Positions 3,036 to 39,757 of a stretch of 64,000 nt of DNA are shown here, in pieces (position 1 is the stretch's first letter; each line of letters opens with the position of its first letter). Origin of the DNA: Zygnema cylindricum (lineage: Eukaryota; Streptophyta; Zygnematophyceae; Zygnematales; Zygnemataceae); contig JBBHKE010002380.1 of the NCBI GenBank assembly GCA_037447655.1, positions 391,332-455,331 on the forward strand, given 5' to 3'. The translations under genes were made by a program, and so were the position numbers. The notes beneath the pieces were generated by a model. It saw only the letters and a program-made list of their open reading frames with translations. It did not search any database and was not told the DNA's origin.

Positions 3036-4009
3036 TACTGTACTGTAATTTGTAGTCGCGCTAACATGTAATTGCGTAAATATTTTCCGGCATACGCGGA
3101 TGTCAAAAAAAAGCGACGGCGTACGATTTGAACAATTTCGTAAATGCACATATTTTAGTGTGGATATATTATGCGCCGAAAATTTTTACAAGCAGCTTAC
3201 AAATTAGAGTTAATGATAAATTAGAATAAAAGTTTTTTTGGAAAAAACTGAAATTCCCAATTAGCGTAAATAACGCTAATTGTTTCATTGCGCTATCTAT
3301 TTCATTACGCTAATAGCGATTCACGGTGTACTAATTAAGCTTCGCGCCTAAAATGACGACGTCATTATGTACAACATCGCGTAGACTCTATGAAGTCGGA
3401 AAAGTCCGGTGAAACCTCGGTGTGCACGGTCTACTTGTTCCGACGTTTTCACGAAAATTTTCTGGAACAGAAAAAAAGTTTTCCTCGATGTGAACAACCT
3501 ATTAGAGTCAAGACTTCAGACTCGTTTTCTGACATCCTCGGACAAGGAAGAGTACAGTGGGACAATATCTTATGCCACGTGACAGATTCTGGATGCATAA
3601 CCTGATGTATTTGTCGGCGGCTGAGAAATAAGAATCTTCTGCAAAATACCACGACGCTGCGCCGCTTCTAGTTAATGAATGACCACGTGATCACACGTGT
3701 GATATTTCAACTCACATTTTGATCGTCAGATTCGGGAATCGAAGTTTTCATCCTTCCGATTTGCCACATCAGTATCCAAGATTTGTCATTGTGATGACTC
3801 ATCGTATCACGTGGATTCTCTCCTATTGTTTTCCTCAGAGTTCAGACAGCAATAGTGTGCATCGTCGGGGCTTGTACTGTGTACGACTGTACGGCATTTA
3901 CAAGAACAAATTTGTCAAATCGACTCTGCGTGAGAAAGTTAATTTCCAGTAGAGGCGACTTTTGGAGCATTGAGGCGAGGAAAACAGCAGGCTGCGAGCA
4001 GCCATAGCC

Positions 4010-7000
4010 ATGGCGTCTTTACGCCTGTCCTTGCCAAGGTCTAAACTATTGGCCTTCAGGAAACTTTTACTTTTTTTTAAATAATTATATCGCCTGCATG
4101 AGACAATTTTCTGTTCTAGTTAGTCGACAAAACTAGCTCGATCTAGTCTTGATGGAGTGAGACTCTTTGGTTTCCGCCTTCATTTTATCAGAAAACCTAG
4201 CTAACATCTTGATGGTTTGTTTTTTCAGGTTCTCTCTTGCGTCTGGAGTACAAGAAAACTGTCAGCACGAGCCTGTGCAAGTGAGATCCTCCTACTGCCA
4301 TAATTATTAAGATTATTTCAGCTTACTCTAGCTAGGCCCTGGCTCTATTTCAATCTTTTTTCATTTGCCTGAGTATTTGTCTGTTCACTACGTCCATATA
4401 AATCATAGTTCTCACTTGCTATCTTCTAGTACTGTGCGCACTTTTGGACGTAGTCATTCAGTTTTATCTATTCTGCACAATTATTCTTTTGTCTTGTTCC
4501 TACGTCTTAGCAATACAGCTGTTCCTTGCTAGTCAGGATGTTTCTTTTAAGAACGGAGCTAATATTTCCTTGTCCATTTTGTTTTATTGAATGCAGGCAA
4601 ACTTGAGAAAAGTCACTGTGGGAAGAAGCACATGGCTTGCGGGAGAGCTTCTCACAGTCCATGGCATCAGGGGAGCACCAAAAACTTGCAGGTGATATTT
4701 TGTGTGGTTTGATGAAGTAGTGATTTTTATTTGCTCTATGCTTGTCTTCTGTACTGGAATAAACCATTGGCACATCATACTTTGACGGATTATGATGCCG
4801 ATGCATTTGAACAATCGTGTTTTCCATGCATTGTTTCTCTAAAGACAGACTCTTGCCAGCTGCATTTTACTCTTATCTAGGTTATCGATTATCAGATAAG
4901 GTTATCAATAAGATTTTCCGATAAGGTTATCGATAAAGTTGTCCAATAAGGTTATCGATTATTTGAGAAGGTCATCGATGAGATTGCCGATAACATTATT
5001 CTATAAGGTTTTTGACAGCATTTGTCACTGAAGCTTGTCTTACTGCCCTGTGCTCGGGAGAAAACTGCAGAAAAGTCAGAGGAGTGGAGGTCACAGCAGA
5101 GGTGGATGGTTCGCTTGGACAAAGTGCTCCTTCTACCGATGGATCTGTACTTTTTGCATCTCCAGGCAAAGCTACTAAGCCTACATCCAACGGGTCGGAC
5201 AAGCAGTCAGCAAGCACTGCTCTTTCAACTGAAAAATCAGATTTTTCAGTTCGTGTTGACAACGAGAGTAGTCCAGGATGTACAGTGGTGGAGTTGCAGG
5301 GAGTTCATCAAGAAGACCTCTTGGTCGATGTCACGAGCGTTTTCAGCAGTTTCAATATCAGGTTGGATTATGAGAGTAGCAATGAACACAATATCATGTG
5401 TTTTACAAAGGGCAAGCTACTTAAGGCAAGAAGGCCAATTTTAAACACAGCCAGATAGATGCCGTTTATGCAGACTTACAGAGAAATTGAACTGATTATG
5501 CATCGTAACCACGTGCTGTCTTTTGCTGGGATTAGCTCATTAGTTTTCCTGTGTTGCAATTTGCTTTACTTGTTTTTTTGGCACGTTCATGTCATGGATG
5601 TCTCTGTCCATTCTGCGAGTCCAGATTCTGAAAGTTCACTGAAGCTTGTTCTTATTTTTATTGATACTTCTTTAAAAGTCTTCCCTGCTTCCACGGTTTC
5701 CTAGTATAATGTGTCTTAAATTCGGAGTCTAGAGATTGAGTTATTTCTTTCCCCATAAAAGCTAAAACTTTTTTGAGACACGGTGTTACAGTCAGTCAGT
5801 AGACACCCTAAATGGGTCGAAAGATATATTTTGAAATAACGACTTTGGTTGTCATCGTTGTGACAAACAGTGTGAAGGAGGCACGCATCATGACTCAAGA
5901 CCAGCGAGTACTTGACGTTTTCCTTGTAGTCGATGCTGAAACACAGACGGCGATATCTATGGAGCGCAGTGTGGAGGTACAAAAAGCAATATTGAAAAAG
6001 CTTGAGAACCGCAAGCGTATCCAGACCTCCCTGGATGACCCTAAGCTGGCAGAGCAGGTAAGAACACTCATTCATATGAAACATTTATCCATTTATTCAA
6101 TTTGATAGAGCTGTCTCTGAAGCCATTTGAGGGTATGAAATTTATATGATAATGCTGTTGTAGAAGTTGGAGAGTGGTGTTGGAAGGAGGGAGAGCGCAT
6201 AAGTGGTGGAAGACATATGGGCTCTTTCTATGTATGTGTGTGGAGGCTACTGAGTCTGCTAGTCTGGAGTACGCATTCATTTTTTGCACAATAACAGAAT
6301 CTGCTTATAAAACTTTTTGTTTTCCAACTCACGTGAACTTGGAAACTGAAACATGGGTCAATGTCAGATAAGACATTGCGCTTCTGATTTTCATGGCAGG
6401 AGAAGGTAGTTTTCCATCATCTATCTTTTTGAAGTATGTATTTGCACTTATTGACCTCTCATATGTGGCCTGTCAAACCCTTCAGCCTCTGGTTAATTCA
6501 CATGCTCTCAAACTCTCAGGAGTTCTGGTACCGAGTTAGAGAATAAATGCGCATACTACAGAGTTATGATAGTAAATGCTAAATCTATGCATGATGTATC
6601 ATTGTATCGTTCTCTATAAAACAGTTCTCTAAAATTTCTATAAAATTAGTGGCGAGACTAAGTCCAGGCAGACACCTCATTTCTAGTTTGTGATGGTCTT
6701 GTAGTGTATTTTTCTCCTCAGTCTTTTGCAGCCATCATTGTCATCTTTATCGTCCTCATGTGTCAAAATCAACATCGTAATTACTTCGGCATTCTTGACA
6801 TTAAAAATCTTGATGCTGTCAATCACTTAAGCCAGGAGAATTTTGCTACACGGTGCAAAAATTCGTTAGTAATATAAAGAAATTATTAGGGTGGGGTTTA
6901 AGCTAATTTTATTAGTTCTAATTTAGTTCCGAATGACGTGGCTGATTCTGAATCGTTTAAGGAATTAGTGTCAAGAAAAAAAATTCGAGTCATTGATACT

Positions 7001-10000
7001 ATTATAGGTTGGAGGTGTAAAATTTAGGGGCACCGATATTGTGTCATCGACGCTAATATCGATAGGTGGTGTACATTGCTATGCTAATAGTGAGCCAGGC
7101 AAGAGTCTGTAATGTAAAAACGGGGCTGAATGGTTGAGTGTACTGTAATATAGTTCATACCATGTGATTCACGGCATACAGTAAATCATGTGAATAAGGA
7201 GTCACCACGAATTGTCGCACTTCTTTCTGATGGTGGTCAGCCATTTATTATAATTTAGTTAAACACCGAAAAAATTGATGGATATAGAATATAGGTGCTT
7301 TTTATAGGTGTGTAATAAAATTGTCTCCTAATAAAATTAGACAATTGTTGTCGGCAATTGTTTAAGTATAATGTAGAAGAATTGTATCAGAACAGGATAT
7401 TCCTATGTCATCCTTTTTTGATTAGCAGCTTTGACTCTAGAAACTGTTGCGGACATGTTCTAATTATTGAGTAGTAGAGCTTCCAGTTTGAATATTTGTA
7501 GCTCAAGGCATGTTTGTAGCACATTGCAATCCTTGAAATTTTTGAAGTAACTTGGAGGTCACGAGGGGTTCCTCCCGGAAGTGGGCTATGGACCGCTTAC
7601 CAATTAGTTTACACTTCCACAATGGAATTAGGCAATGTTCAACTCTACATGTTGTATATCTTAGTTTTTCTCAAGTTCCTTAAGAAGTTGATGTTGCTCG
7701 GTAAAGTTGAGGCAACGCCAAAGTTTTAACCGTTTTATGGTGATAGGCATTTCGTTTAATTTTCTCACTGAATCAGTGCATTCACTGGGGTTAAAACCCC
7801 TTGGCTTGTGAAAGTGCCAACCTACAGTGTGATTGCCATCATGGTATTTGCTTCATTAACTGTTTTCTATCTCCACTTTTCTGACTTTTTGTGAATCCTA
7901 CCATCTGTTCTCACCAGGAAACTTTTCTTTTGGAGCTTATGGAGAAGGTCGTTGCTGCATATGGTGACTCAGCTGTGGTAGAGTCGGTAAGTATGATGTT
8001 TCAATTAGGTATTCATAAATTATAGCAAGCACCTTGGGGACAACCTTGTCTGTGCTGGTTACCAAGAAGGTGCTCATAAGAAGTACAAGTACGGACTCTT
8101 GTTTTGTGTGTTTGGCTCTGTTGTAGTGGGCTCGATGAGAAATCTTTTCCACATTCGAACAATTTTTTTACAGATGTTCTAATGTATGGTGACAGGCCAA
8201 ATTCTTGCAAAAAGGCTTCAAGGCACTTAGAGACAAAGAAAACCCGAGGAAGCGTGCAGAGCTCTTGCGTTACATTGAGAAAATGGATGTTTCCACTGTG
8301 AGGCCCACTTACCCATGCAGGACCTCTGTCTGTGATTGATATACTTGCTCATTGGCGATATTTTTGGATGTTTTGTGCAAAGTAGGAAGTTTTTCCTGAT
8401 TCGTTTAGACTGATTGGAGTCACTACAATTCCTACGATGGTTTCCTACTGGTAAATCATCGATTGTTGTTCGTTTTTGCCACTTTTCGACACTTCTGTCT
8501 ACTCTCTCTTCAATCACACTGTTTTCCCTCTGATCCATTGTGGTTCTGGCTCTCTCCCCTCACACACGGACGTACGCTTTCTCCCTTTGCACATGGCTGT
8601 ACCCTCTCCCCTCCCACATGGCCATACTCTCTCTCACCTCACACATAGTGTACTCTCTCTCCCCCCTCACACTTGGCCGTACTTTCTCTGGTTGATTGCA
8701 GACCACAGGTGTGGTTCGCTTGTACTATCTCTACTCCTCTCTTCTCAATGTTGTCGATGAGGCCCATGCCCATCGTAAAAGGAGAGAACAAGTTTGGGCC
8801 TCTCGAAGCGCGACACCTCTGTGGTATGCTTCCTTTGATCACACATTCCGTATGTTCCGGAAGGCAGACGTGGGTCCCAAGGAGCTTCAAAAGTTGCTTG
8901 ATAAAATAGAGGTGTGTTTATCGCCTGCCTACATTTGTAAAAGTCTGGGTTCAGACCAATTTGATATTTCTTGTAAAACTAATGGTTGTGACTGATACAC
9001 TTGTGTTTCACGGTTCACTAATGAAGTGCTTTCCGTAGGACCGACGGTTAACAAGAGTGTCAGGTAATGGTAGTGGCTGAAAAACTTAATTAGGCTAGAA
9101 TTTTGGACTAGACACTTACACTGGTCATTACAAGTGTGATTTTGTGGATCAAGTGAAAGTACACAACTAGGAAACATGCATGATTTTTACCAAGGCACTT
9201 GAAATAGCATATTATGCGAATCCATGGTTTTGTGAGTTATTGGAAACTATTTCAATGTAGTTTTGCTTACAGTTGATACATGTGTGTTCTAGTTATGGGA
9301 GTCTTCACTGTTTTCAATCAAACATGCATGCTCACTTTACATTGTAGATCTTCTTTTGGTCATGCCTGGTGAAGGAGGAACTGCCCGTGGTTCCCTAACA
9401 GTGCTTTAATCTTTATGTTGGTCTGCAGTATACTCCTGTCTTTACAGCACACCCCACAGAAGCACGACGCCGTGAAGTGCTCAAGTGCCTCCATCGAATC
9501 TTCCTTCTATGTTCAGAACGAGAGGTAGGCTAGGGAATTTTGGCAGTTGGTGTGTAAAACTACAGGAAATGATGGAAGCCGTCTGGTTTTACTTTTCTTG
9601 CAGCAATCTTCATTTCTACCATATGCAGATTTGCAAGATACACCGTGAATTGTTATTAGCATTTATAAAACTTTTGTTTGCTCTTGAACATGAAACAGAG
9701 CTAAAAATACTAGTTTTTTTCTTAACAATAAACCGGTAAACGGTCCAAGGTCGTCTACGTTGCTTGGAACTAAATTTGAAATAATAACACAACTCTTCCT
9801 ACACTGTAAATTTTTTAATGCTAAAACGATTGACGGTGTACTGGCAGAGCAAAACTGTGCATTTCAGAGATATTTTGGAAAACACATTTGAGTTGTATTT
9901 GCAGGGTGCAACTACGATTGAATCGTATACCCAGAATTTTGAACTTCAAATCACTTAGAAACACGATGATGTTCATGAACAAAATGTTAAATCTATATTT

Positions 10001-13000
10001 CAATGTACGAAAAGTTACATCACAACAGTACAAATGGCCAGCAACTAGTTTCAACTCTCATAAGGAATGCAAAGCATTAAAATTTTGTCAATGTAGTAGA
10101 ATATACGTGTTCTGCTATAGTGTTTGTTCTCATGCTCATACGGCACAAATGGACATAACCGTCAGAAAAACAAAATTAAGCTATCAAAATTTCTTCTGAA
10201 CTGCCTGGAATTGTAGACGCCAATGTTAGTGTCGTTGACGACATGTGCGTGGAACGCAGTACCATACTTTCAAGTCAACCTATATATATTCCCAACTATT
10301 GTAGTTCAACCTTCAGAATAATTTAACTGTGAAAATTCAAATCCTAAACAAAAAAGGATAAAAATGTTGAACCATGAGGTCTTATTCAATTTCTGGATAA
10401 TGCGGCTTTTTTAAAAGAAAATTGAGGCACCTGTAGAGTTTTCCTGCTTGGAATATGAATTCGTGGAGGTGTACATTGTCCTTCTGCAGGATCCCCGACT
10501 GAGTTTCGCCCAGCGTGCAGAACTTAATTCTGAAGTGGAAGCTGAGGTGAGACTATGTTTTTTGCTGTAGTTACTTACTTTTCATATCCACATGACTTCT
10601 TTATGTGGTAAGACTTTCTTAACTAATATATATTTTTGGTCGCACTTTCACTTGGACGTCATTGCCTGCATCTGGCGTTACTTTTATGATTTTTCCATCA
10701 AGAGCTAGATTTCTTGAATCTGTAAGTTGTGTTTGTTGTCCAAGAGTGTTTATTTCTGTAAAAAATTGTTTTGTTCTTGTGCTCAAGAGTGGTTTAAGGA
10801 GGCTTGATGTGTCAGATTGAGGTCCTCTGGCGTACTGATGAAATGCGGGTTCGTAAGCCTTCAGTCCTCGAGGAGGTTTTAACCGGGCTCGATTATTTTC
10901 GACTATCTCTATTTGATGCTGTTTGTACCACTTATCGCTATGCAGAAAACTCTCTTTTGGTGAGACTTTTCCTTAAAGATATTTGTTTATGTTTTTATTG
11001 AATAAACTGTGTAGCACAGAAGCCAAAAACAGCATGAAAAGCAACCACACGTATTCTGCATCAGGATTATTTTTCTTCTGTGGTTTGGAGCAATTGTCGA
11101 TTCAAAACTTTCTAACTGAAATTTTGTGATCTATGACTTGCAGCATGTTTATCCCAGTGCGGGATTGAAATTACCTAGCTTTATTAAATTTGGTTCCTGG
11201 ATTGGTGGTGATCGCGACGGTAATCCTTTTGGTGAGCTGCCGATGACTATTTTTTTGCAATAACCTACTTGATCATCATTTATTAAAATTTCCTTTCATC
11301 AGCCACGATTCGATCCCGTCCAAGAATAATATTTAATCTGCCTTGCTATTGGCCGATGTCATTCTCATTTTCTATTTTTCGCTTATTCAACTAAATCTCA
11401 GAGCCTCTGATTTGTGCGGTTTGCCATGACTAAATGGTAAAACAAGCGTCCAATTTTTTGTCTCGTGTAGTCAGCAAGTTTTCATCCTTAGCAAAGTTTC
11501 TTTTTAGCAAATAAGTTTGTTTTACACTTTCGCCATATTGTGACACCCGAGTTCTGCTTTTATACTTGCCTGGCAATTCTGTACAGTGCTTCCGGAAACT
11601 ACAGAAATGGCAGCCCTGGTCTCAAGTCGCCTCATTCTAGCGGAATATATCGGGCGTTGCAAAAAATGCGAGGTAAATTTGAACTTCGCCGAAAACAGTG
11701 TTAAAACAGCAGTGGTAACAGTGTTAAACGCAACAGCAACAATACACAACACAAAACACAGCTACAACAACAACTACTACAACAGTGAATAGAGTCAGGC
11801 TTCAGTAAATTGTGTGTTTATGTGAGGAAAAACCAGCTAGTCCTACTTAAAAGTCAACTTTTCCACAAAATTTGTGTTTATTTCTTCTGTTTCTTTATAT
11901 GCCGGAAGAGGAAGGTCTCTGAGGATGTGGCTTGGTTCAGAAAGTCAGAATATGTCATTGACGAAATTGTGTAATTGCTGAGATAATACTTGTTGGTATT
12001 AACTACCAGCACAGGAACCCTTCCCTTCTGGTTTTTGTTGGGATGACAGGAAACTCTCACACATTCACTGCTTATTTGTAATGTCAGCCCTGAGCTCCTT
12101 GATTCTTTGAAAAAGGACAAAGAGATGCTCGAAAAAGTTCCAGCGGCTCGACCAGAGCTTATGCTGTTTGAGCATGTAAGTGAACAAGAAAACTGAAGTA
12201 CAACCTATCCACTTAGAGGTGGATGTTGCCCAGGAAGAGTTTGAAGTTCCGATTTTATCTAGAAGAAATGACTGTCAATTGTCCCAGTTGTTAATCGGTA
12301 GTTTTTTTCATGGAAGCTTGTATGATGCTGTTATCTCAACTTAAAGCACTATCGCTGTTAGAGTTAATCACACTAGTTCGAGGGGGTGTTTTTTGACCGA
12401 AAATCATAAACTAGTCAAAAAAATAAACTATTTAGTTAAGTGACCTGTATCGAGCCATGTTGCAAAATAGAGTTTACTGTCGGTAATTCTAATCAAGTGT
12501 TAATGCCAATAATTCACTAACTCAAATGGCTATAGAGGGTGTAGTCTCGCATTAAGGTGCCTTTGTTATGAAGGTGCCTTTGTCTTGATTGCTTAAGTAA
12601 TCCTGAATTAGAAGCAGTGGCTAAAAGTTAATTAGTGTCGGCGGATTGTCTTCGAGCAGGAGCCCTACCGCCTGAAGTTGCGAGCAATGAGGCATCGCCT
12701 CGAACAGAATATCCGTAGAGTAAATTCATATCTGCGAAGTTTCAGCGATTTTGCATTGGAGGTTAGTGTCCTTCTCTCTCAGCATCCCTACTTTTGAGAC
12801 GTTGTTGGATGTCTTCTTCATTCATTGACCACATTTTTTCTTTTGTATCCGGCCAGTATATTTATGTTGTTTTCAACAAACCCATACAAGGTCTGTGGTG
12901 ATGAAGCAGCATGATGGTGTAGCTCGCTATGTTTACAAGCTGAATTTATTGTCAAAAATTAGTTAGTCTTCCTTCAACCTTACGTTTTTTTTTACGCCTC

Positions 13001-16000
13001 CTATTACGGAGTACTTCTGTGCCTGAAATGTTTCAAGTAGATGAGTTCCATTTTACGGGATTTAGAGTTGATGGGACTCATGGGAGTTTATTCCTTCTAT
13101 CAGGATACCAATTGGTTAGTCGACATGGAATTCAATATGGAGGAGCATCCTGGTCTGGAGACTCAAGCAAATGCTTACCCGTCAGAAGAGGACTTCCTGA
13201 CAGATCTCAGACTTATCGATGTGAGTGTAATAACTCGATATTACCTTAGATTACTTCCATAGCCATGTTAGTTTGACATGTTCAAACTTTTACATTACAG
13301 TGGCATATCTGCAGGCTTTTTATTGGAGGATTTGCTTATTTTGCTTGACTTGTGGGAAGTGGGAAGGGAGGATGTGATGATTTTAGGCATCACTACGGGC
13401 TCATGGAGATGCACGATTAGCGAATTCGAAGCTCAAAGACCTTATTCGACTTGCAGAGACTTTTGGCTTTTATCTTTGTGCCCTCGATGTTCGTCAGGAA
13501 TCAATGGTGCATGCTGAGGTAAGGTTGCTGAACTGAGGTGCTGTTATTTCTGGAGGAGAGAATAACCAAAGAGTAATATCTCCAGTGGACTTACACTCTG
13601 AGCTCTTGTGGTGGTTTTAAAACAGGCAGTGGAGGAGTGCCTCCGCTTATTAGGCTGTGAGCAAGACTATAAGGCCCTTGACAATTTGGGACGTGTGGAG
13701 CTCCTCACACAGTATTTACGATCACCGCCTCCCACAGATAAAGTAAGTTATGAACCTAATACAAAGTTCACTTTTAACAAAGGTCTCTAAGAGGAGAAGT
13801 CATGATCAATTTGTCCCTTGCTGTCAAATTGGGAAATATGGAAAATGTCCTATGTGACGATGATTTTGTGCTTACTATTATTACTGTGTTTCTGGGCTCA
13901 TGCTGTTAATCACTCTTAACTGGGAAATTATGGTAAGTGTTCTGCACGGTGATGATTGTAGGCTTCCCACTATTGGTATGCTTTGGTTCCGGCTAAGCCC
14001 GCTATACTTGAAAAATATGAAATTTCCCTCGCAGTGATGATTGTGCGTTTATTACAATTGTTTTGCTTCAGGTTTCGATGCGGTTAAGCACATTAAACTA
14101 GAATATATGGAAAATGTCCCCGACTGTCATGATTTTGTGCTTAACTAAAGCTGCACTGCGATTGGTCTGCAGGGCCTGTTTGAGCGCATGACGGAGAGCA
14201 CAAGACAGGTAGTGAAGGTGTTAGATGCAGTTGCTAACATCAAAGAAAGAGTATCACCGAAAGCCGTTGCATCATATGTGATTTCTATGACTCGCCAGTC
14301 GTGTAACGTACTCGAGGTGAGTTATGTCATCAAGAAGTTGAGCCAGTTAGTAATATGTTTCATGTCAATGCTGCAGTTGTGTAATAGACTTTTGTTTGAT
14401 CAAATGTGAATACAGCATGCAGGAGCCTGGAGCTTTTTGTTGGTGATCACCATCTCAAAAGCTCAGCATTATTGATTTTTATTCAGAATTTGTAGAGAGG
14501 TTAGGCAATGGCAAAGGAATAATAGGTAGTCCATTGATCTTTACATCTGAGCTATTGCAGGTCCTTTTCCTCGGGTGGATTGTGAACCGCGACTTACTGA
14601 AATTGCATGAGAATGGCGAGTGGTCCGCAAAACTTGTTGTCTCTCCCCTTTTTGAAACCATTCCGGATCTGGAGGTTAGTTGATTGAACAAAGCCACAGC
14701 AACGTTTTTGTTGCTTTTATGTGCGTCTTTAAATGCTCTCTTGTTTTGTGCATGTTTTCACTTCTTTTGCGCCCTTGATGATTCAAAATGTCTGGGGTGT
14801 GAAGTTCCATAACACTGATGATGTCTGTTGGAACAGTTTGTAAGCAGCTATTGGTATTGCATGGTAGCTACTATATATATGTGTGTGTGTGTGTGTATAT
14901 ATATATCTTTGCTGCAATATATACGTACATTTTCATGATTAAGCATGCATAAATAGAAACTTTGGCAATATTTGGTAGCTAATATGTATTCATCGATAAG
15001 AAATCGATGAGAAATTCCCTATAACTGGCTACGTTTCAATACTTTGGTGGTGGATGGTGAGCAGCACATGCCATCAGCTCTTCAGCAGCTTATGGAGAGT
15101 GCAACATACAAAGAAATTTTAGCTGCTTCCGGAGGCGTGCAGGTTCACTCTACCTACTTTTCCTTTATGTTTCTGCATATGTTTCTTTGCGCCAAAGCCA
15201 ATACAAATTTATCAAAGCATGTCAATCTAATTTCTCTGCTGCAAGAAAAGCCTCTGTCGGCAATCCTCTAACCCAGTTCATTTTGCCGAGGCTTTTGCAG
15301 GAAGTTATGCTGGGATATTCGGACTCATGTAAGGATGGAGGAATCACTGCCAGTGCCTTTAACTTATACAAGGCTCAGGAAGTGATTCGAAATATCACTA
15401 CTGCTGCAGGAGTGAGGTCACGTATCTTTCACGGCCGAGGAGGGACCGTGGGAAGAGGGGCCGGTCCAACCCACGAGAGTGTGTTGTCACAAGTGAGCAA
15501 ATCCATTTTAAAATGTGATTTTTGTCTTGTTTCGCGTGCATTTTTTTGATTTTTTTTTTTTTATGTTTTTGTAAAATTCGGATTGCTTTTGGCATTTAGG
15601 GACCAAATCTTTTTTTAAGTTTTGAACTTCTCATGGGTGTATCTAGTGACGTCTATTTGTACAAAGAGACTGGAGTTTATCAACATGCTATACACACAGA
15701 ATCATACATTCACAACTAGTGCCATTTGTGACCACAATATAGTTCTTTTATGCACAAAGTTATCACATACAAAGTTTGCCCTCTTCTGACTGCCTACGAT
15801 TGTACTTATGTCCGTATTCCTTTTCACAAAGATAGTGGTATTTCTGAATACATTGGTCTATTTTGGCCGAGTGTTGAGTATCTTTTTCTTTCAAATCCTA
15901 ATGCACTGTATGTTGTTTATGTAACATCCAGGGTTGAGTCTTATGTACAGTCCAATGCATGCCTTAACCAGCCAATCGATGTTACTAACGGCAAAGACTA

Positions 16001-19000
16001 ATATGAGTTTAATTGGTTGATATGGCAATTGTTGCAGCCCCCAGGATCAGTAAATGGACAGATCAAGTTCACAGAACAGGGTGAAGTGATAACATACCGA
16101 TACGGAAACAGTGAAACCGCAACCTATGAGCTTTCGGTATGTGGTTTGGGATGATAGCACGAAGAGGATTGTTATATGGAATTGATCATCCACAGTCTTT
16201 GTTTACCCTTTTGATGTTGGACGGTGACGTTGGTGGTCTTTCTCGTGTCCCATTTGGGTAACCAATTCTTGCAGTTTCCATATCTCACCTGATTATATGT
16301 GAGCCTTGCTAAAAAGCACATGTAAGTGTGCTTAGTTTGTAGATTTGTCTGCAACTAATTTGACAATGTTTTTTTTTAAGGAGTGGCTTATCTACCTGGA
16401 ATGAACATTTTTTTGACGAGGAACATCTTTTTGGCAACAGGTGGGTGTTACTGCAGTGATGAAGGCAAGCCATCCTGCGACGCGACATGAGCAAGATTTT
16501 CCTCCAGAGGTGTGAATGAAAGAAGTTTAAATGACAACACTTTAATGAAGCGATTTGGATTTGGCAGTAGAAGACTGGTTCTCCTTATTTTAATGCCGCA
16601 AGTCTTTTCACGGCTTTTTGGTTCCCAAGTTAATGCAGAATGTGTATGTAACAAATTTACTTTTTGCTTATGTTTTGCAGTATTTTGATGTGATGGAGGA
16701 AGTAATGGCTGGAGCGGAGAAATCTTACCGTGAACTTACAGAGGAAACAGAGGGTTTCTATGATTACTTTTATGATGGGACTGTGGTAAATGAGATCAGT
16801 TTGATGAACATTGGTAGTAGACCTGCTCGCCGCAAAGCTGCTGTGAGAGACAAGTCAAGCCTTCGTGCGATTCCCTGGGTCTTTGGTTGGTCGCAGGTGA
16901 GCTTTTAAGTTCTGAAAAATAATGCTTTAATGGTCTCGTTACATTATCGTAGTTTGCTTACTTTTCATGAGTAAACCTTGCTTAAGTAAAAACTCTTCAG
17001 ACTGAAATTCTCTAGCAAAGTCTTTTACCGCTGCTGACAAGGGTCTTTTTCTGGTTCAGTCACGTCACACACTACCTGGCTGGTATGGAGTTGGTTCCGG
17101 TTTACTTGCATACAGTGGGAACCGTCTGGACCGCATAAGACAACTGCAACAAATGTATCGAGACTGGCCCTTCTTCCGGACCTTCCTTTCAAATGTCCAG
17201 GTGAGAATTCTTTTGGGACTGCACGTATCATGTCATCCACTCATTTTGCTCCACTAAAAATATAAGCATCTACATTGTGAACCATATAGGCGTTTTGATA
17301 TTAATTCCACATCATTAAAGGTGATAAATAGAAAACTAGTGTGGATTGTGGCAGTATTAGTGGGTCTTGAAATGTGAACAGATAATTTTTCTCCTTTCGC
17401 TGAATTCATTAGCTTCGCAAAAGGGGGAGGCAATGTTATGTGGTCATGTGAAAATTTTATTTTTTTTACAAACTATTTGGGGTTCTTGTTTGTGGTTATG
17501 CTAACACCAAATTTTGTTGGTTGAGGCCAGATGTCTTTGTTTAAAGCGTCCATGGAAATTGCCCAGGAGTACTCTCGATTATGCCAGTAAGTTTGACGTG
17601 CCTTTTTCCCTGTTAAGTTTCTATTGTTGTTTGAATTTTTTACAGTTTGGCTCATTTAAAAGTAGAAGATAGAAAGAAAAATGAAGCAAATTTTTGAGAC
17701 GATTATGCAAACGAGTTGTGTACTGCCTGGATGGGGTGGAGCCTCCACCTTACGTGCCAAAAATGGGCATATCGTGTAGATACCAATGCCTATCTCTATT
17801 AAGTGTAAAGGAATTACTAGCGTGAAAGCGAAACTAGCATTAATAGCGATGTTGCAGTTGTAGTTCGCTCTCTTAAATAGCGTAATTTACATTACTTCAT
17901 TGTTTTGGGCCAGAAAAACTGCGATTGAATTAGTGTTGCTAAAACATATGGTGATGGGCAATATAGTGGCATAAACATGTTCAGTTATAATCTCTGTTTT
18001 TGTGGTCAGCCAATCCGATGTACAGTTATACAATTTGAGATGTGCATGTAAGATGCCCATTTGTGCATAAATCATAAATATTTCAATCTGTAAGCGTGTT
18101 TGAAATGTGTTTGCATTGCAGTATTCTTATCCTTCACAGAAAAATTGTGAGGAGATAATATTTTCTTACAGGCCATTATGGAAATGGAGTGATTGGTTAT
18201 CGTACAGTCAATTGCATGTATTGCGACAGAGTACCTTTACACATATTAACAGATTCGCTGTAAAAAATCAACAGACCACAGTAACTCATGTGTGTAAACA
18301 TTGTATATGCACATGGTTTTTTGCCATTAGAATTAAACTGCATGTACCGTTAAAATCTATTATTTTATTTCTGGGATAGAGAGTATGACAGCATCAGAAA
18401 CCACTACCAGAAGATGTAAAAAACAAGCTCAACCAAGTAATAAACCATAGGTGATTGGTGATAAGTACTTAAAGGAGTCAGTTCTCCACTTGAAAAGGTG
18501 TAAGGATGTACCGTCCTTTCTCTTTTCCACTTAGTTTCAGTAGATTTGCTTGGCTGGAAATGTCAAGTACTCATAAATCCTTCCTTGGAAATTTGATTAA
18601 CTCCAGAAACCGTATCACCCAGCGTTTGGTATATGAGCTCGTTCAAAGCGAGTACGAGTTGACTAAATCACAGGTATGTCTCTCTTCAATTTCAAATAAT
18701 TTAGGACTATATTCAGTCAATTATTGATTGAAAGCCGCTAAGCTGGAAATGCTTTGTCATTTCTGCTGTAAATGGTATGATCTATAACGGTATTGAATGC
18801 CATATAACCGCCTGCTTAACACATTTTACACCCGTTTGTATACATTTTTATCTGAAGTTTACTTAAATACCCAGTGCGCTTAAATGAGCCCTGGCTAGTT
18901 GAAAGCTTTGTCAAAAACGACAAAGCAAAAAGAAGTCTGTGTCTTATGGCAAAGGGAAGGTTGTAGAGACGTTAATTGAATCTGGTCAATAGTTGTTCTA

Positions 19001-19498
19001 GGGATTTCTGTAGAGATTTTCGTTAACTCTTTTTTTTCCTTTTTTTGCTTTCATGCAGATTCTCATGGTTGCTCAGTTGAACTCACTTCAAGAAGATAAC
19101 AGCATTTTGAAACGATCATTCGGAACTAGACGTGACTACCTTGACCCGCTGAACCATATTCAGGTTTGCCATATTGTCTCCTCCGTCTCCCAGCCTAATA
19201 TGGATATAATATAATATCCCTTTTATATAATATACCCTTTTATTTTAACTGTGTCTCACTGCTCGTTGTAAAGACTTTGTTAAGATTTGCCTATGCGTTA
19301 TGCGTTATTGTTTGAATTCACGTGTAGTAAAAGAAATCCTTAAGTTTTGAGAATTTTTTATTATTCTTTGTTGTTCAGATTATTTTATTGGGGAGGAGAA
19401 GAGATCCACAAGTGACGGCGGAGGATATGGAGTTATGGGAAAAGCCATTGTTGCGTACCATCAAAGCCATTGCCAGTAATATGAGGAATACCGGCTAA
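4010..19498 (+). CDS. ACT-domain / phosphoenolpyruvate carboxylase fusion, 30 exons
   Basis: PEP carboxylase makes oxaloacetate from PEP and bicarbonate. Exons: 4010-4038, 4229-4280, 4597-4691, 5071-5361, 5871-6057, 7918-7986, 8196-8297, 8702-8911, 9429-9524, 10490-10546, 10816-10959, 11144-11231, 11587-11672, 12050-12175, 12660-12761, 13104-13220, 13387-13518, 13626-13742, 14173-14316, 14561-14674, 15065-15142, 15301-15492, 16038-16136, 16441-16509, 16681-16896, 17060-17200, 17531-17586, 18541-18673, 19059-19163, 19379-19498. They sum to 3567 nt (1188 aa) with matching phases. Residues 1-58 are basic and Ser-rich, like a transit peptide; the start context is gccATGG. Residues 128-203 are an ACT domain (TVVELQG, then FSSFNISVKEAR, then [17 protein letters not shown]). 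PEPC follows from about 219: TAHPTE (His353), GGDRDGNPF (465-473), [10 protein letters not shown] (817-826), [11 protein letters not shown] (855-865), C-terminal RNTG. The RNTG end is bacterial-type; no plant-type N-terminal phosphorylation motif is seen. PEPC is certain. The ACT linkage rests on splice phase. Alternatives are an ACT-only transcript stopping at 6105 or a PEPC start at Met226 (7939). Confidence 0.85.
4878..5008. repeat. Tandem ATAAGGTTATCGAT-type repeat
   Basis: About five to six imperfect copies of a roughly 24-bp unit built on ataaggttatcgat lie in intron 3 of the ACT-PEPC gene, just before the exon that opens the ACT region. The atcgat core is itself palindromic. Confidence 0.7.
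6849..7071. mobile_element. TA-flanked element, family 3, in ACT-PEPC intron 5
   Basis: The left end is TA|CACGGTGC and the right end is ataggtggtg|TA. It carries the block aatgacgtggctgattctg and then taaaatttaggggcaccgat. Copies with the same blocks occur at 20934-21143 (inverted) and 51292-51496. It lies in the long intron that separates the ACT exons from the PEPC exons. No coding capacity. Confidence 0.65.
8545..8695. repeat. Minisatellite, ctctctcccctcacacatggc-like unit
   Basis: Four to five imperfect copies of a roughly 30-bp unit combine a pyrimidine run, a cacaca(t/c)gg block and a gta(c/t)t block. They sit directly upstream of the acceptor at 8701 in intron 7 of the ACT-PEPC gene, so the repeat supplies a very long pyrimidine tract for that splice site. 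Confidence 0.7.
9802..9838. mobile_element. Possible deletion derivative of a TA-flanked element
   Basis: TA|CACTGTAAA at the left and CGATTGACGGTG|TA at the right are separated by only about 37 bases, inside intron 9 of the ACT-PEPC gene. The right end matches the family ends well and the left end only loosely. It may be an internally deleted copy or a lone right end. Confidence 0.35.
12347..12541. mobile_element. TA-flanked element, family 2, degraded copy
   Basis: This 195-bp stretch in intron 14 of the ACT-PEPC gene shares ordered blocks with 32791-32989: gaccgaaaatcataaa versus agccgaaaatcacaaa, tatttagttaagtg versus tatttaaggaagtg, and gtaattctaat versus ttaattctaat. The ends are eroded (left cactatcgctgtta, right gagggtg|TA). 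Confidence 0.5.
13825..14160. repeat. Four tandem ~90-bp repeats filling ACT-PEPC intron 18
   Basis: Copies start near 13829, 13919, 14010 and 14100, so the period is 90-91 bp. Each has a gggaaatatgg-like block, then aatgtcc- or gtgttc-like bases, then gatgatt(tt)gtgc. The copies have diverged, so the array is not recent. It occupies most of the intron between 13742 and 14173. Confidence 0.7.
14871..14908. repeat. (TA)n(TG)n(TA)n microsatellite
   Basis: A compound dinucleotide run (tatatata, then tgtgtgtgtgtg, then tatatata) in intron 20 of the ACT-PEPC gene. Confidence 0.9.
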
Positions 19499-20226
19499 GA
19501 AAAAGTTTCGACATAAAGGTTAAATCACACAGTCACACAATCGAAATCCTCCTTTTGGTCCGTTTTCGTGTCATTAATGGGCAAAGGGACGGGGATGTAC
19601 TCTCATTAATAAAACACATATGTCAGTGAGTATATGAGCATTTAGGATAGTAGTAAGCTGGGCGTTTGTCAAACCACTCACAAGTATTAGTTGTGGTTAC
19701 TAATGATAGCTACTGATGATCCCGGTATGTTTTTTTTTATATATGTTAGGTTGTCTTTTGTTGAATAAACGTTTCTTAGTGCTCTACACGCATTAGGATT
19801 GTGAGCATTATTCAGCTTTCTCTCATAATAGCTTTCTTATGTCCTCTAGTTTTCCTATATTTTAGACGGCTATCTCGGGATCCTCTATGGAAAACAGCCC
19901 AGCTTTGTAAGGTACTAAAAAAAATTCTCCTATGTTTTCCTTTTCAAATGTCACTTATGCATTTTTTACATTTAACGGATTTTTCCCCATTATGGACTTT
20001 TGCCCGTTCTGGTGTTTGCTTGTTACTTCAGCGACCACTTCAGGTTGGAGCTTAGAAACCGGAAGCACAAAAGTAAACAATAGCGATGTTGGAAGCTGTC
20101 GAGGCCCTCAGGTATCGATGTGGTGAAACAAACTACTGTGACAGGACTACTATTTGTGTTACTAGAGAAAGCGACTAAATTACTCTGATTGCTAAAGTCC
20201 TGTGAATATCGGTGGAAGCCATTTGG
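19499..20226. other. 3' flank of the ACT-PEPC gene
   Basis: No gene is recognised here. An AATAAA hexamer at 19764-19769, about 270 bases after the stop codon, is a possible polyadenylation signal. Short plus-strand frames around 19800-20130 have no family features. Confidence 0.45.
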
Positions 20227-27415: not shown

Positions 27416-28808
27416 ATCTCCTGTTCTCTCTCTCTCCATCTCTCTCTCTCTCTCTCTCTCCCTCTCCCTCCCCCTCCCCCTCCTCTCCCTTCCCCTTCCC
27501 TGCCCCCTCCTCCTCCCCCTCCCCATCTCGTCCGCCTTCCCTCTCTCTATCCCTTTCCCACTTTCTCTCTCTTTCCATCTCCCACTCCCTCTCCCTCTCC
27601 CTCTCCCTCTTCCCCTCCTCCCCTCCCCTTCTCCCTCTCCCTCTCCCTCTCCCTCTCCCTCTCCCTCTCCCTCTCCCTCTCCCTCTTCCCCTCCCCTCCC
27701 CTTCTCCCTCTCCCTCTCCCTCTTCCCCTCCCCTCCCCTCCTCCCTCTCCCTCTCCCTCTCCCTCTTCCCCTCCCCTCCCCTCCTCCCTCTCCCTCTCCC
27801 TCTCCCTTTCCCTCCTCCCTCTCCCTCTCCCTCTCCCTCTTCCCCTCCTCCCCTGCCCTTCTCCCTCTCCCTCTCCCTCTCCCTCTCTCTCTCCCTCTCC
27901 CTCTCCCTCTTCCCCTCCTCCCCTCCCCTTCTCCCTCTCCCACTCCTTTTCCCTCTCCCTCTCCCTCTTCCCCTCCTCTCCTCCCCTTCTCCCTATCCCT
28001 CTCCCTTTCCCTCTCCCTCTCCCTCTCCCTCTTCCCCTCCTCCCCTGCCCTTCTCCCTCTCCCTCTCCCTCTCCCTCTCCCTCTCCCTCTCCCTCTCTCT
28101 CTCACTCTCCCTCTCCCTCGTCCCCTCCTCCCCTCCCCTTCTCCCTCTCCCTCTCCCTCTCCCTCTCTCTCTATCCCTCTCCCTCTCCCTCTCCCTCTTC
28201 CCCTCCTCCCCTGCCCTTCTCCCTCTCCCTCTCCCTCTCCCTCTCCCTCTCCCTCTCTCTCTCACTCTCCCTCTCCCTCGTCCCCTCCTCCCCTCCCCTT
28301 CTCCCTCTCCCTCTCCCTCTCCCTCTCTCTCTATCCCTCTCCCTCTCCCTCTTCCCCTCCTCCCCTGCCCTTCTCCCTCTCCCTCTCCCTCTCCCTCTCC
28401 CTCTCCCTCTCCCTCTCCCTCTCCCTCTCCCTCTCCCACTCCCTCTCCCTCTCCCTCTCCCTCTCCCTCTCCCTCTCCCTCTCTCTCTCCCTCTCCCTCT
28501 TCCTCTTCCCCTCCTCCCCTCCCCTTCTCCCTCTCCCTCTCCCTCTCCCTTTCCCTCTCCCTCTCCCTCTCCCTCTTCCCCTCCTCCCCTGCCCTTCTCC
28601 CTCTCCCTCTCCCTCTCCCTCTCCCTCTCTCTCTCCCTCTCCCTCTTCCCCTCCTCCCTGCCCTTCTCCCTATCCCTCTCCTTCTCCTTCTCTCCTCCCC
28701 TTCTCCCTCTCCCTCTCCTTCTCCCCCTCCCCCTCCCCTTCCCTCTCCCCTCTCCCTCTCCCTCTCCCCCTCCCCCTCCCCCATTCCCTCCCCCTCCCTT
28801 CCCCTCTG
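27416..28808. repeat. 1.4-kb pyrimidine tract with higher-order (CCCTCT)n repeats
   Basis: The plus strand is almost pure C and T. The base unit is ccctct. Every 60-100 bases it is broken by a ttcccctcctcccct(c/g)ccctt module, giving at least ten modules. A longer unit of about 160 bp that includes ctctctcactctcc and ctctctatccctc occurs twice (near 28096 and 28258). It lies upstream of the UBC27-like gene. Large open frames across it encode only Pro-Ser-Leu or Arg-Glu-Gly repeats and are artefacts. Confidence 0.95.
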
Positions 28809-29090: not shown

Positions 29091-29287
29091 TGCCCCATTC
29101 CCTCCCATCGGCTTCGTTCTCCTCCGCTGCCCTCGTCTTTCCCCTCCTCTCCACTGCCCTATCCTCCTCTCCTTCTCCTCTCACTGTCCTTTCCTATCCT
29201 CTCTATTGCCCTCTTCTCCTTTGCTAACTCCTCTCTCTTCTTCCCTCTTGTTCCTTTTCGGCCGCCACCTCCTTTTTCTTTCCTCTC

Positions 29288-29450
29288 TTGTTCTTCCCTC
29301 TCCTCTTTCTTCTCTTTCCTCTTTCTTCCCTTTCCTCTTTCTTCCCTCTCCTCTTTCTTCCCTCTCCTCTTTCTTCCCTCTCCTCTTTCTTCCCTCTCCT
29401 CTTTCTTCCCTCTTCTCTTTCTTCCCTCTCTGCTTTCTTCCCTCTCCTCC
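29288..29450. repeat. ttccctctcctctttc tandem repeat
   Basis: About nine copies of a 16-17-bp pyrimidine unit, ending about 400 bases before the UBC27 start codon and probably inside or near its promoter or 5' UTR. Confidence 0.85.
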
Positions 29451-37215: not shown

Positions 37216-38115
37216 TACTGTAGTAAATACCGGACGTTCGGCGATTTGAGCTATTTCTGGGGATACGCTAAATATTCGAACTTTCGAAGCCTTCAAAAAC
37301 TCCGACAAATCTGTATGGTTGATTTTTTTACTGTACGGCTGTACGAAATTGGTAGAGCCCGTCCTCTAAGGACATATGCGCCTCTGCAAAGGAGATGAAA
37401 ACAATGCATGCAGTCTGTTCCAAATTTTTTTCCTTACGGGTCGTAGGGAATCCGCAAGGTTTCTGCTAATCACGGCTGGCAAATCAAAGTCGATTTTGGA
37501 CCAACCTGCTGTTGATTTGGAAGATCGCAGAAAACCAGCCAGTCACGGTCCACCTCAATTGTAGCGACTCTAGATTCGCTATCTCTCACGTGGCATTCAA
37601 TGAATCGTAAAGATATTTCATCGGTCACGCTACAACCAATCAGGTGCGATTTAGCTACCATGACCTGTTGCATGACATTTGCCGATTTCTGCGGAAATCT
37701 TTCCGGCGAAATATCTACAAAAGCTCAAAAACTCAAAAAGACATTCCAAAAATAGATTTTTGTATTACGGAATTTGTACTTTTTGCGACCTTTCCGTTTA
37801 GCGTTCATTATTCAACACAAAACCCTGCGGACTTTTCCTTTACAAGGCTTGAACCCTCCCATTCGCAAAAAACAAAAAGTGTCTCATTTCTTAAATTCTT
37901 TCGCTTTGAAAAAGTGGTCACTCATCCGTTAAAAGTTTTCTTTCGATTACCGTACACTAATTTCGTACGGCAACACCACAAAATTATTAATGCCACAGTC
38001 TGCTTTTTATTACTCGCCAAGTAACTTTTCCTTTAGCAGCATCAAGGAGCTTGGGAGAATTTACCAAGTCCTACTTTCTCTTACTTCTTGTGGACTTTCC
38101 AGCTGTTTATTTTCT

Positions 38116-39228
38116 ATGGCTGCCATTGCTTCCCTTCCCTCTCTCTTCAAACCTCTTTGCCGCCATGGTCAACCACAGCCTCATCTTCCAATACTGAAGA
38201 GTAGTCAATTTGTCCGACTTACCTCTCGCTGCTCCTCCCAACGCTCTCGTCATTTTATCTCACGTGCGGCTGTCTCTTCCGCATCTTTTCCGCCAGCTGG
38301 CAGCTCTGACTCAGTCACTGAGCTCAAAAGTCCCGAACCTTCGCTTGGTGGAGGTGGTTTTGACGGAAATAATAATTCTGACGGAAACGGTAACTCTAAT
38401 GGTGGAAGTGGTGGTAATGGAGGATGGCAAGGCGACAGTAGTGGTAGCTCTTCTAATGGCGCCAAAAACAATTCTCTCCTTGCTTTACTTGCAAAAGGAT
38501 GGTCCGATCGTGTGGAAGCTGATCCTCAGTTTATTTTCAAAGTTCTTACTGAGCAGATCATCGGTGTGAGTGCTTGTGTAATAGGAGACATGGCTACCCG
38601 CCCTAACTTCGGTCTCAACGAGCTTGACTTCGTGTTTTGCACTCTCGTTGTCGGTTCTATTGTCAATTTTGCTCTCATGTATCTTCTTGCTCCAACTACA
38701 GCCGCAGGAGTCACTGCTAAGGCTCTCCCTTCTATATTCTCGGGATGCCCTCCGGCACATATGTTTGAAGGAGGATCTTATTCTGTTTTGTCAAGAGCGG
38801 GAACTTTTGTTTACAAAGGAACTCAGTTTGCAGCAGTAGGGTTTTTGGCAGGGCTTGCTGGAACAGCTATTTCTACTCTTCTTCTGGAAGTAAGGAAAGC
38901 TTTGCAACCAGACTTCGTTTTACAGAATAAACCACCTCCTCCTCTTCTTAATGCAGCAACTTGGGCGATTCATATGGGACTGAGCAGTAATTTCCGGTAT
39001 CAATGTCTCAATGGATTAGATCAAGTGCTTCTTCCTGTGTTGAATCCAGCTCTTTTCCTACCACTGGCTTTCTTTATTCGAGGATCAAATAATATAATTG
39101 GAGGATCAACTTTCGTCATGCTCGCAAAAGTTACCGGATCACAAAAAGCAGTGGAATCACCAGTCGAAGAAGCGAAAGAGGGAGGAGCAGTGAAAGGAGA
39201 GGTTGGAGAGACTGTACCGGCAGTTTAG
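38116..39228 (+). CDS. RETICULATA-related (DUF3411) plastid envelope protein, intronless
   Basis: RETICULATA-family proteins are integral proteins of the chloroplast inner envelope, linked to leaf mesophyll and plastid development; their biochemical role is unsettled. The single-exon frame gives 370 aa. Residues 1-55 are Ser/Arg-rich with few acidic residues, as in a transit peptide. Residues 75-115 are a Gly/Asn/Ser-rich linker. The conserved part starts near 120: ADPQFIFKVLTEQIIGVSA, GDMATRPNFGLNELDFVF, a hydrophobic stretch to MYLLAPT, CPPAHMFEGG, TFVYKGTQFAAVGFLAGLAG, NPALFLPLAFFIRGSNN. At least three or four segments could span the membrane. The start at 38116 is preferred over an in-frame Met at 37990 because it opens a typical transit peptide. 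No intron is seen, unlike every other gene here. Its 3' half is duplicated just downstream. Confidence 0.9.
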   Translation: MAAIASLPSLFKPLCRHGQPQPHLPILKSSQFVRLTSRCSSQRSRHFISRAAVSSASFPPAGSSDSVTELKSPEPSLGGGGFDGNNNSDGNGNSNGGSGGNGGWQGDSSGSSSNGAKNNSLLALLAKGWSDRVEADPQFIFKVLTEQIIGVSACVIGDMATRPNFGLNELDFVFCTLVVGSIVNFALMYLLAPTTAAGVTAKALPSIFSGCPPAHMFEGGSYSVLSRAGTFVYKGTQFAAVGFLAGLAGTAISTLLLEVRKALQPDFVLQNKPPPPLLNAATWAIHMGLSSNFRYQCLNGLDQVLLPVLNPALFLPLAFFIRGSNNIIGGSTFVMLAKVTGSQKAVESPVEEAKEGGAVKGEVGETVPAV

Positions 39229-39250
39229 GAAGGTGTCCATGCTGCTTCGC

Positions 39251-39757
39251 CCTTCTATATTCTCCCTTCTATATTTGGGATGCCCTCCGGCACATGTTTG
39301 AACGAGGATCTTATTCTGTTTTGTCAAGAGCTTGGACTTTCGTTTACAAAGGAACTCATTTTGCAGCAGTAGGGTTTCTGGCAGGGCTTGCTGGAATAGC
39401 TATTTCTACTCTTCTTCTGGAAGTAAGGAAATCTTTGCAACCAGACTTCGTTTTACAGAATAAGCCACCTCCTCCTTTTCTCAATGCAGCGACATGGGCT
39501 ATCCATATGGGATTGAGCAGTTATTTCCGGTATCAATGTCTTAATGGATTAGATAAGTGCTTCTTCCTGGGTTGAATCCAGCTCTTTTCCGACCACTGGC
39601 TTTCCTTATTCGAGGAACAAATAATATAATTGGAGGATCAACTTTCATCATGCTTGCAAAAGTTACCGGATTACAGAAAGCAGTGGAATCACCAGTCGAA
39701 GAAACGAAAGAGAGAGGAGCAGTGAAGAGAGAGGTTGGAGAGACACTATCAGTTTAG
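39251..39757 (+). pseudogene. Truncated tandem copy of the RETICULATA-related gene
   Basis: This matches about 38726-39228 of the upstream gene, from CPPAHMFE through the stop, with high identity by eye. It lacks the N-terminal half and any start context. A one-base deletion (gatcaag to gataag, near 39554) shifts the frame and brings a stop at 39573; the downstream frame (NPALFRPLAFLIRG ... ETLSV) would otherwise continue. The copy also carries the parent's 3' flank (tttaggaaggtgtcca), which places the duplication junction just after the parent's stop. Confidence 0.9.

Follow-up and report, generated by a model that had tools for sequence, protein, structure and literature searches.

Does the streptophyte alga Zygnema cylindricum encode an ACT domain and a complete phosphoenolpyruvate carboxylase (PEPC) in one gene, and, if so, what might the ACT domain do there? 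The question is raised by positions 4010–19498 of a 64,000-nucleotide stretch of contig JBBHKE010002380.1 (GenBank assembly GCA_037447655.1, forward strand, 391,332 to 455,331), referred to below as the window. The original prediction for this locus was a fusion of the two parts with built-in amino-acid sensing. The ACT fold often serves to sense amino acids, and PEPC is the entry point of carbon into the synthesis of aspartate and glutamate. In the analysis described here, the join of ACT and PEPC in one gene is judged very probably real; profile matches place the ACT half with GlnD, and trees place the PEPC half with gammaproteobacterial enzymes. The sensing function is considered with more reserve.

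The region 3900–20000 was read for a rebuild by hand on PEPC homology, checked by script and drawn from genomic letters alone. The result is a single forward-strand gene of 30 exons, running from an ATG at 4010 to a TAA at 19498 (3504 nt; Table 1). All 29 introns have GT–AG borders, and the predicted protein (1167 residues plus stop) has no internal stop. It consists of a leader, an ACT domain (residues ~115–205) and a complete PEPC (216–1167). The exon number of the original model, said to add up in frame, agrees, as do its GT–AG junctions 5361/5871 (phase 2), 6057/7918 (phase 0) and 7986/8196 (phase 0). Its protein length of 1188 residues differs: the rebuild is 21 residues shorter, although the named exon borders agree. 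Other starts of exons 4 and 14 were rejected because they break the frame; starts at 5071 and 12050 keep it.

Support for the model is uneven along its length. Exons 4 and 5 have coding signals of 0.24 and 0.49 bits per codon, in each case higher than any of 2000 length-matched random intron windows (maxima 0.09 and 0.15); this control is lenient, as the background had been trained on the very introns that supplied the windows. Exons 1–3 have no clear frame preference (in-frame signals 0.18, 0.05 and 0.21); another frame scores equal or higher in exons 2 and 3, and the antisense strand of exon 1 reaches 0.64. Splice sites were ranked among 1066 GTs (donors) and 947 AGs (acceptors). The donor of intron 1 is weak (423rd), and introns 3 and 4 have acceptors in 199th and 303rd place. 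For these reasons confidence in the first ~58 residues is much lower than in the others, and exons 1–3 are the least certain part of the gene. The composition of the first 60 residues (6 Arg, 3 Lys, 3 Glu, 0 Asp) would fit organelle import. By eye, intron 3 contains imperfect short repeats such as AAGGTTATCGAT (~4879–4990, plus strand).

The identity of the larger half is clear. The Pfam model PF00311 (PEPcase) matches residues 216–1167 with an E value of 1.9e-266 and spans profile positions 2–919 of 919. At 17 of 20 compared positions the model is identical to E. coli PEPC, including H138, R396, E506, D543, K546, H579, R581, R587, R699, R713 and the inhibitor-site residues K773, R832 and N881. 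The other three (438, 620 with K to R, and 647) are all variable in 39 gammaproteobacterial rows too. Ten E. coli residues that we take to be active-site residues are all identical. With these and the aspartate/malate inhibitor residues kept, the predicted enzyme should carboxylate phosphoenolpyruvate and keep classical feedback.

On profile evidence, the smaller half is of GlnD type. The NCBIfam GlnD model PRK05092 matches the full protein with an E value of 1e-12 and the ACT piece cut alone with 2.3e-14; PRK00275 (4.3e-11) and TIGR01693 (5.7e-11) are further GlnD models with good matches. Altogether, the full protein is matched in this stretch by seven GlnD models, six of them at the model's C-terminal end, the last ACT domain; the exception, PRK01759, matches further in, at model positions 665–764 of 862. 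The best Pfam ACT match is PF24931 (ACR9_3rd), which covers residues 118–187 and gives 31.7 bits for the ACT piece alone (cutoff 27). A tblastn search of 72,556 plasmid records with the ACT piece alone (E limit 1) found 14 records, with weak E values of 4e-3 to 0.2; seven of these have an annotated feature at the match, in every case glnD, and the other seven are unannotated there. When aligned with GlnD of E. coli and Methylobacterium over their ACT domains, the piece retains the lead-in strand, the TVVE strand and the VDVF-V-D core of the second ACT domain (ACT2).

Some matches to general or structural references weigh the other way. In the full-length protein PF24931 gives 25.9 bits, just below its cutoff of 27; the general ACT model PF01842 gives 16.1 bits with the ACT piece alone, again below a cutoff of 27; and a search of solved structures with the ACT piece alone gives no match up to an E value of 10. 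PF22754 gives 27.3 bits with the ACT piece alone, against a cutoff of 27.6. The ACT domain first proposed for this stretch is therefore recognised by the GlnD models and, when cut alone, by PF24931, but not by the general model.

Whether the two halves belong to one gene is decided around intron 5. Exon 5 is shared between them: it holds the end of the ACT domain followed by DDPKLAEQ, which aligns with the start of gammaproteobacterial PEPCs. In an N-terminal alignment of 39 of 116 PEPC-like open reading frames (ORFs; >650 bits, query start <60), the bacterial proteins begin DK-LR-RVKLLG or similar opposite the exon 5/6 junction peptide. The donor at 6058, directly at the end of exon 5, ranks fifth among the 1066 GTs. 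With an N-terminal PEPC profile it is also the best of 267 GTs in 3951–7917 (31.5 bits; next GT 31.0; exon 6 alone 30.8). The frame upstream of exon 6 meets a stop, with no ATG after it.

These findings bear directly on the alternative that two adjacent genes have been read as one, namely a small ACT protein ending at 6105 and a PEPC starting either at Met226 in exon 6 or from an upstream non-coding exon. In its favour, read-through of exon 5 does meet a stop ending at 6105, as had been noted originally, and intron 5, at 1860 base pairs (bp), is the longest of the 29. A start at Met226, the first in-frame Met of exon 6, would cost only ~15 residues of N-terminal PEPC homology. The profile gain from exon 5 is small, below 1 bit (0.5 bit over the next GT and 0.7 bit over exon 6 alone). 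The weak acceptor of intron 4 lies within the ACT domain and also counts against the fusion, yet 4 of the 24 acceptors of introns 6–29 score below it. A separate PEPC gene would have to be reconciled with a strong donor placed exactly at the end of the ACT exon, with the stop and missing ATG before exon 6, and with residues at the end of exon 5 that continue the PEPC homology, and we regard it as quite improbable. A pseudogene or an assembly chimera is scarcely credible, as the window is without any N, the model is without a frame break and the catalytic residues are kept. Profile matches, splice sites, coding signal and the exon common to both halves thus back an ACT domain followed by a full PEPC in one open frame.

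Comparison with other PEPCs indicates a gammaproteobacterial (Chromatiales-like) affinity of the PEPC part, not a plant-type one. Bacterial PEPCs with the motif FTAHPTEA(K/R/Q)R were drawn by DNA pattern, giving at least 119 loci, a sample picked by PEPC motif. The best bacterial BLAST matches among the matches listed (up to 820 bits, 46% identity) are gammaproteobacterial, for example from Thiohalomonas and Chromatiales-like genomes. In a MAFFT alignment, the best identity among the matches listed is 47.4%, also to a gammaproteobacterial PEPC. E. coli PEPC is 29% identical to the model in alignment, and plasmid records with a PEPC match reach 34.7–37.1% identity (20 of 124, among the matches listed). 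Against solved structures, the whole protein (phmmer) matches plant PEPCs best, at ~350 bits, and E. coli PEPC at 339.

Two trees were built by quick searches. The larger contains 87 of the 116 PEPC-like ORFs (aligned length >740) and four named rows; the smaller, used for an approximately unbiased (AU) test, contains 29 of these 91 rows, picked to span groups. The gene nests among gammaproteobacterial PEPCs in both, with branch values of 100, 96 and 92 in the larger tree and 99, 82, 83, 86 and 97 in the smaller, and the two plant-type PEPC (PTPC) rows group with E. coli. A clade of the gene with the two PTPC rows is rejected (AU p 2.6e-07), as is a grouping with PTPC and E. coli (p 0.004). 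The exact sister of the gene is unsure, given its long branch and the quick searches behind both trees. By eye, the sequence SIDAQLR, which we take to be the plant-type phosphorylation motif, does not occur in the 1167-residue model. The C-terminus, MRNTG, fits (R/K)NTG, presumably a feature that bacterial-type PEPC (BTPC) has in common with bacterial PEPC, with QNTG in PTPC; E. coli PEPC ends in NTG. The NCBIfam model PRK00009, a match to which serves as a BTPC marker (PMC8784020, extract), gives 813.8 bits against a cutoff of 815. Both plant PEPC types are held to descend from gammaproteobacterial PEPCs (PMC3521007, extract).

The two parts are known, and their combination appears new. A bacterial ACT–PEPC fusion was considered as a source and rejected, as none of the PEPC ORFs of the 119 loci among the matches listed is fused. 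A phmmer search with the ACT piece against 4762 ORFs (≥80 residues) of these loci, among the matches listed, gave nothing at E ≤1; its reach is limited, as it missed an ORF with two ACT domains at locus L046. A five-row ACT model found that ORF, unfused, as its one match among the matches listed in the same set. The ORF in question (L046|-0|2417, 189 residues, minus strand of a Thiorhodovibrio genome) has two ACT-like stretches and lies directly downstream of the PEPC ORF. A whole-protein scan of genome contigs gave 17 pattern matches and a scan of viral contigs 3, with no relative in either. Literature pairing PEPC with 'ACT domain' contained no such enzyme by title or abstract start, in a coverage that leaves most subscription journals outside, so the original statement that no ACT–PEPC had been described stands to that extent. 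A PEPC review (PMC8100219) never uses the term 'ACT domain' in its main text, nor does PMC10853006 use it, and PMC12301720 does not contain the word 'ACT' at all.

As to function, we consider it probable that the product is a single PEPC of gammaproteobacterial affinity with a GlnD/ACR-type ACT domain tethered to its N-terminus as a regulator. PEPC subunits assemble into oligomers, pairing is common among ACT domains, and phosphorylation at the N-terminus of plant PEPC relieves malate inhibition; taken together, these points suggest that ACT pairing across subunits would act on the first PEPC helix. Joined to the PEPC N-terminus by a short linker (~10 residues), paired ACT domains would pull on this helix, and may thereby shift aspartate/malate sensitivity or change the oligomer state.

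What speaks most against plain amino-acid sensing is the altered ligand loop. D-(R/Q)-P-G in the two GlnD ACT2s (D-Q-P-G in E. coli), it reads H-Q-E-D here, with all four letters lost, and Asp stands where the near-invariant glycine of the β1–α1 ligand loop is expected. The ACR11 paper describes this glycine as nearly invariant and as sitting at the Ser-binding site of PGDH (PMC3173338, extract). Of the original claim, the ACT–PEPC order is upheld, and amino-acid sensing is best kept as a suggestion. With such a loop, either the ligand has changed or the ACT domain is mainly a pairing module. The latter could well be the case: within a real fusion, the domain would serve pairing, scaffolding or the binding of a partner, and would have no small-molecule ligand. 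The loss of the loop with its glycine points this way, and the first ACT domains of both aligned GlnD proteins are likewise without glycine at this position. Against it, the GlnD ACT pattern is otherwise well preserved, and ACT domains can presumably bind ligands in other ways.

If a ligand is retained, glutamine is the most natural candidate, though only a candidate, in view of the descent from GlnD and the reported glutamine activation of green-algal PEPC. Direct binding of glutamine to the ACT domain, with activation of PEPC, would give that known activation a physical basis. GlnD ACT domains, to which the present one is nearest, are considered glutamine sensors (PMC3173338, extract), and glutamine is reported to activate Chlamydomonas PEPC and one of the Selenastrum isoforms (PMC7046716, extract). 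The ligand loop is changed, however, and these two algal enzymes are not known to carry an ACT domain. Cyanobacterial PEPCs respond too, with that of S. vulcanus activated and that of Synechococcus 7002 inhibited by glutamine (PMC7046716, extract), so that glutamine may be able to act on a PEPC even without an ACT domain. The altered loop and the cyanobacterial effects together make glutamine sensing unlikely. Only tentatively, and with some doubt, may a broader picture be drawn around the tethered regulator: the alga would wire nitrogen status into anaplerotic carbon entry, with a re-shaped GlnD-related ACT domain on PEPC sensing glutamine or another nitrogen signal, perhaps in the plastid, and tuning the aspartate/malate site without PII or a protein kinase.

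We know of no described sensor site for the response of green-algal PEPC to glutamine and glutamate. With a PEPC bearing a domain from the bacterial glutamine-sensor family, the sensor question can be put to the test by expressing a single protein. Such a PEPC would, in addition, be a eukaryotic example of an enzyme of bacterial affinity that carries an added regulatory domain. The response of green-algal PEPC to both amino acids is itself on record (PMC7046716, extract).

Table 1. Exons of the predicted ACT–PEPC gene, with the intron at the domain junction (window positions).
Feature	Position	Strand	Content
Exon 1	4010..4038	+	initial ATG, possibly a targeting leader; donor weak, no frame clearly preferred, start uncertain
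Exon 2	4229..4280	+	leader; no clear frame preference
Exon 3	4597..4691	+	leader; no clear frame preference
Exon 4	5071..5361	+	linker and first half of ACT domain, residues 59–155
Exon 5	5871..6057	+	second half of ACT domain, short linker, first 8 residues of PEPC homology (DDPKLAEQ, 211–218)
Intron 5	6058..7917	+	1860 bp, ACT/PEPC junction; donor rank 5/1066, acceptor rank 90/947
Exon 6	7918..7986	+	PEPC N-terminus, residues 219–241; directly upstream, in-frame stop with no ATG after it
Exon 7	8196..8297	+	PEPC
Exon 8	8702..8911	+	PEPC
Exon 9	9429..9524	+	PEPC, motif with catalytic His (E. coli H138)
Exon 10	10490..10546	+	PEPC
Exon 11	10816..10959	+	PEPC
Exon 12	11144..11231	+	PEPC
Exon 13	11587..11672	+	PEPC
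Exon 14	12050..12175	+	PEPC
Exon 15	12660..12761	+	PEPC
Exon 16	13104..13220	+	PEPC
Exon 17	13387..13518	+	PEPC
Exon 18	13626..13742	+	PEPC
Exon 19	14173..14316	+	PEPC
Exon 20	14561..14674	+	PEPC
Exon 21	15062..15142	+	PEPC
Exon 22	15301..15492	+	PEPC, active-site loop
Exon 23	16038..16136	+	PEPC
Exon 24	16441..16509	+	PEPC
Exon 25	16681..16896	+	PEPC, equivalents of E. coli R699 and R713
Exon 26	17060..17200	+	PEPC
Exon 27	17531..17586	+	PEPC, inhibitor-site Lys (E. coli K773)
Exon 28	18607..18673	+	PEPC
Exon 29	19059..19163	+	PEPC, inhibitor-site Arg (E. coli R832)
Exon 30	19379..19498	+	PEPC C-terminus MRNTG, stop TAA, inhibitor-site Asn (E. coli N881)

Elsewhere in the window, a Pfam scan of eight neighbouring pieces left six without a match. 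A RETICULATA-like ORF lies at 38113–39225 on the plus strand (PF11891, E 1.3e-59); RETICULATA is, we assume, a family of plants and algae, and the 29 introns of the ACT–PEPC gene point to a eukaryotic host, most probably algal. The C-terminal half of the RETICULATA-like ORF recurs after it in another frame as an incomplete, diverged copy (39093–39575, plus strand), which looks like a tandem partial duplication. On the minus strand, an ORF with a GYF domain (PF02213; 57660–58619) adjoins a long Gln-rich ORF, the two spanning 54189–58619; by eye they are perhaps one large gene extending up to ~61.4 kb. Long C/T-rich arrays with strong strand skew lie at 27426–28807 (unit CTCTCC, ~1.4 kb) and 29269–29449 (16-base unit), and the long ORFs inside them are low-complexity. 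A fragment resembling aldo/keto reductase by eye is found within 47810–48511 (minus strand), beside (GA)n-type repeats.

Among known systems, gammaproteobacterial PEPCs of the Chromatiales/Thiohalomonas type are closest in the catalytic part, with 39–46% BLAST identity over the PEPC part in 39 rows among the matches listed, a common FTAHPTEA(K/R)RR-type motif and a common start of homology; unlike the gene here, they are single-domain, with no ACT domain in the PEPC ORFs of the sampled loci. PTPC (maize, 5vyj; Arabidopsis PPC3, 5fdn) belongs to the same enzyme family and is presumably regulated at its N-terminus, but in the gene here an ACT domain stands at that end in place of the phosphorylation motif, and the C-terminus is RNTG and not QNTG, a distinction that we take as a rule. 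BTPC of plants and green algae, the class-2 PEPC subunit, is resembled in the RNTG C-terminus, with a PRK00009 score that stays just under the cutoff, in a comparison by profile and C-terminal residues. Plant ACR proteins (ACR9–ACR12) are linked to the ACT half by the Pfam model of the third ACT domain of ACR9, but presumably lack a catalytic domain. Each such protein consists of two to four ACT domains (PMC3173338, extract). The C-terminal ACT2 of GlnD (PII uridylyltransferase) provides the best profile matches, and the strands and core described above are as in Methylobacterium GlnD; it differs in its ligand loop and in not being fused to PEPC, and neither the nucleotidyltransferase nor the HD domain of GlnD is found in a Pfam scan of the protein. 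In phenylalanine hydroxylase, the ACT domain presumably lies N-terminally and pairs; the catalytic domain is unrelated and the ligand is Phe. As an enzyme of metabolism that is regulated through an ACT domain (PMC3828330, extract), it offers a model of how the algal protein may work.

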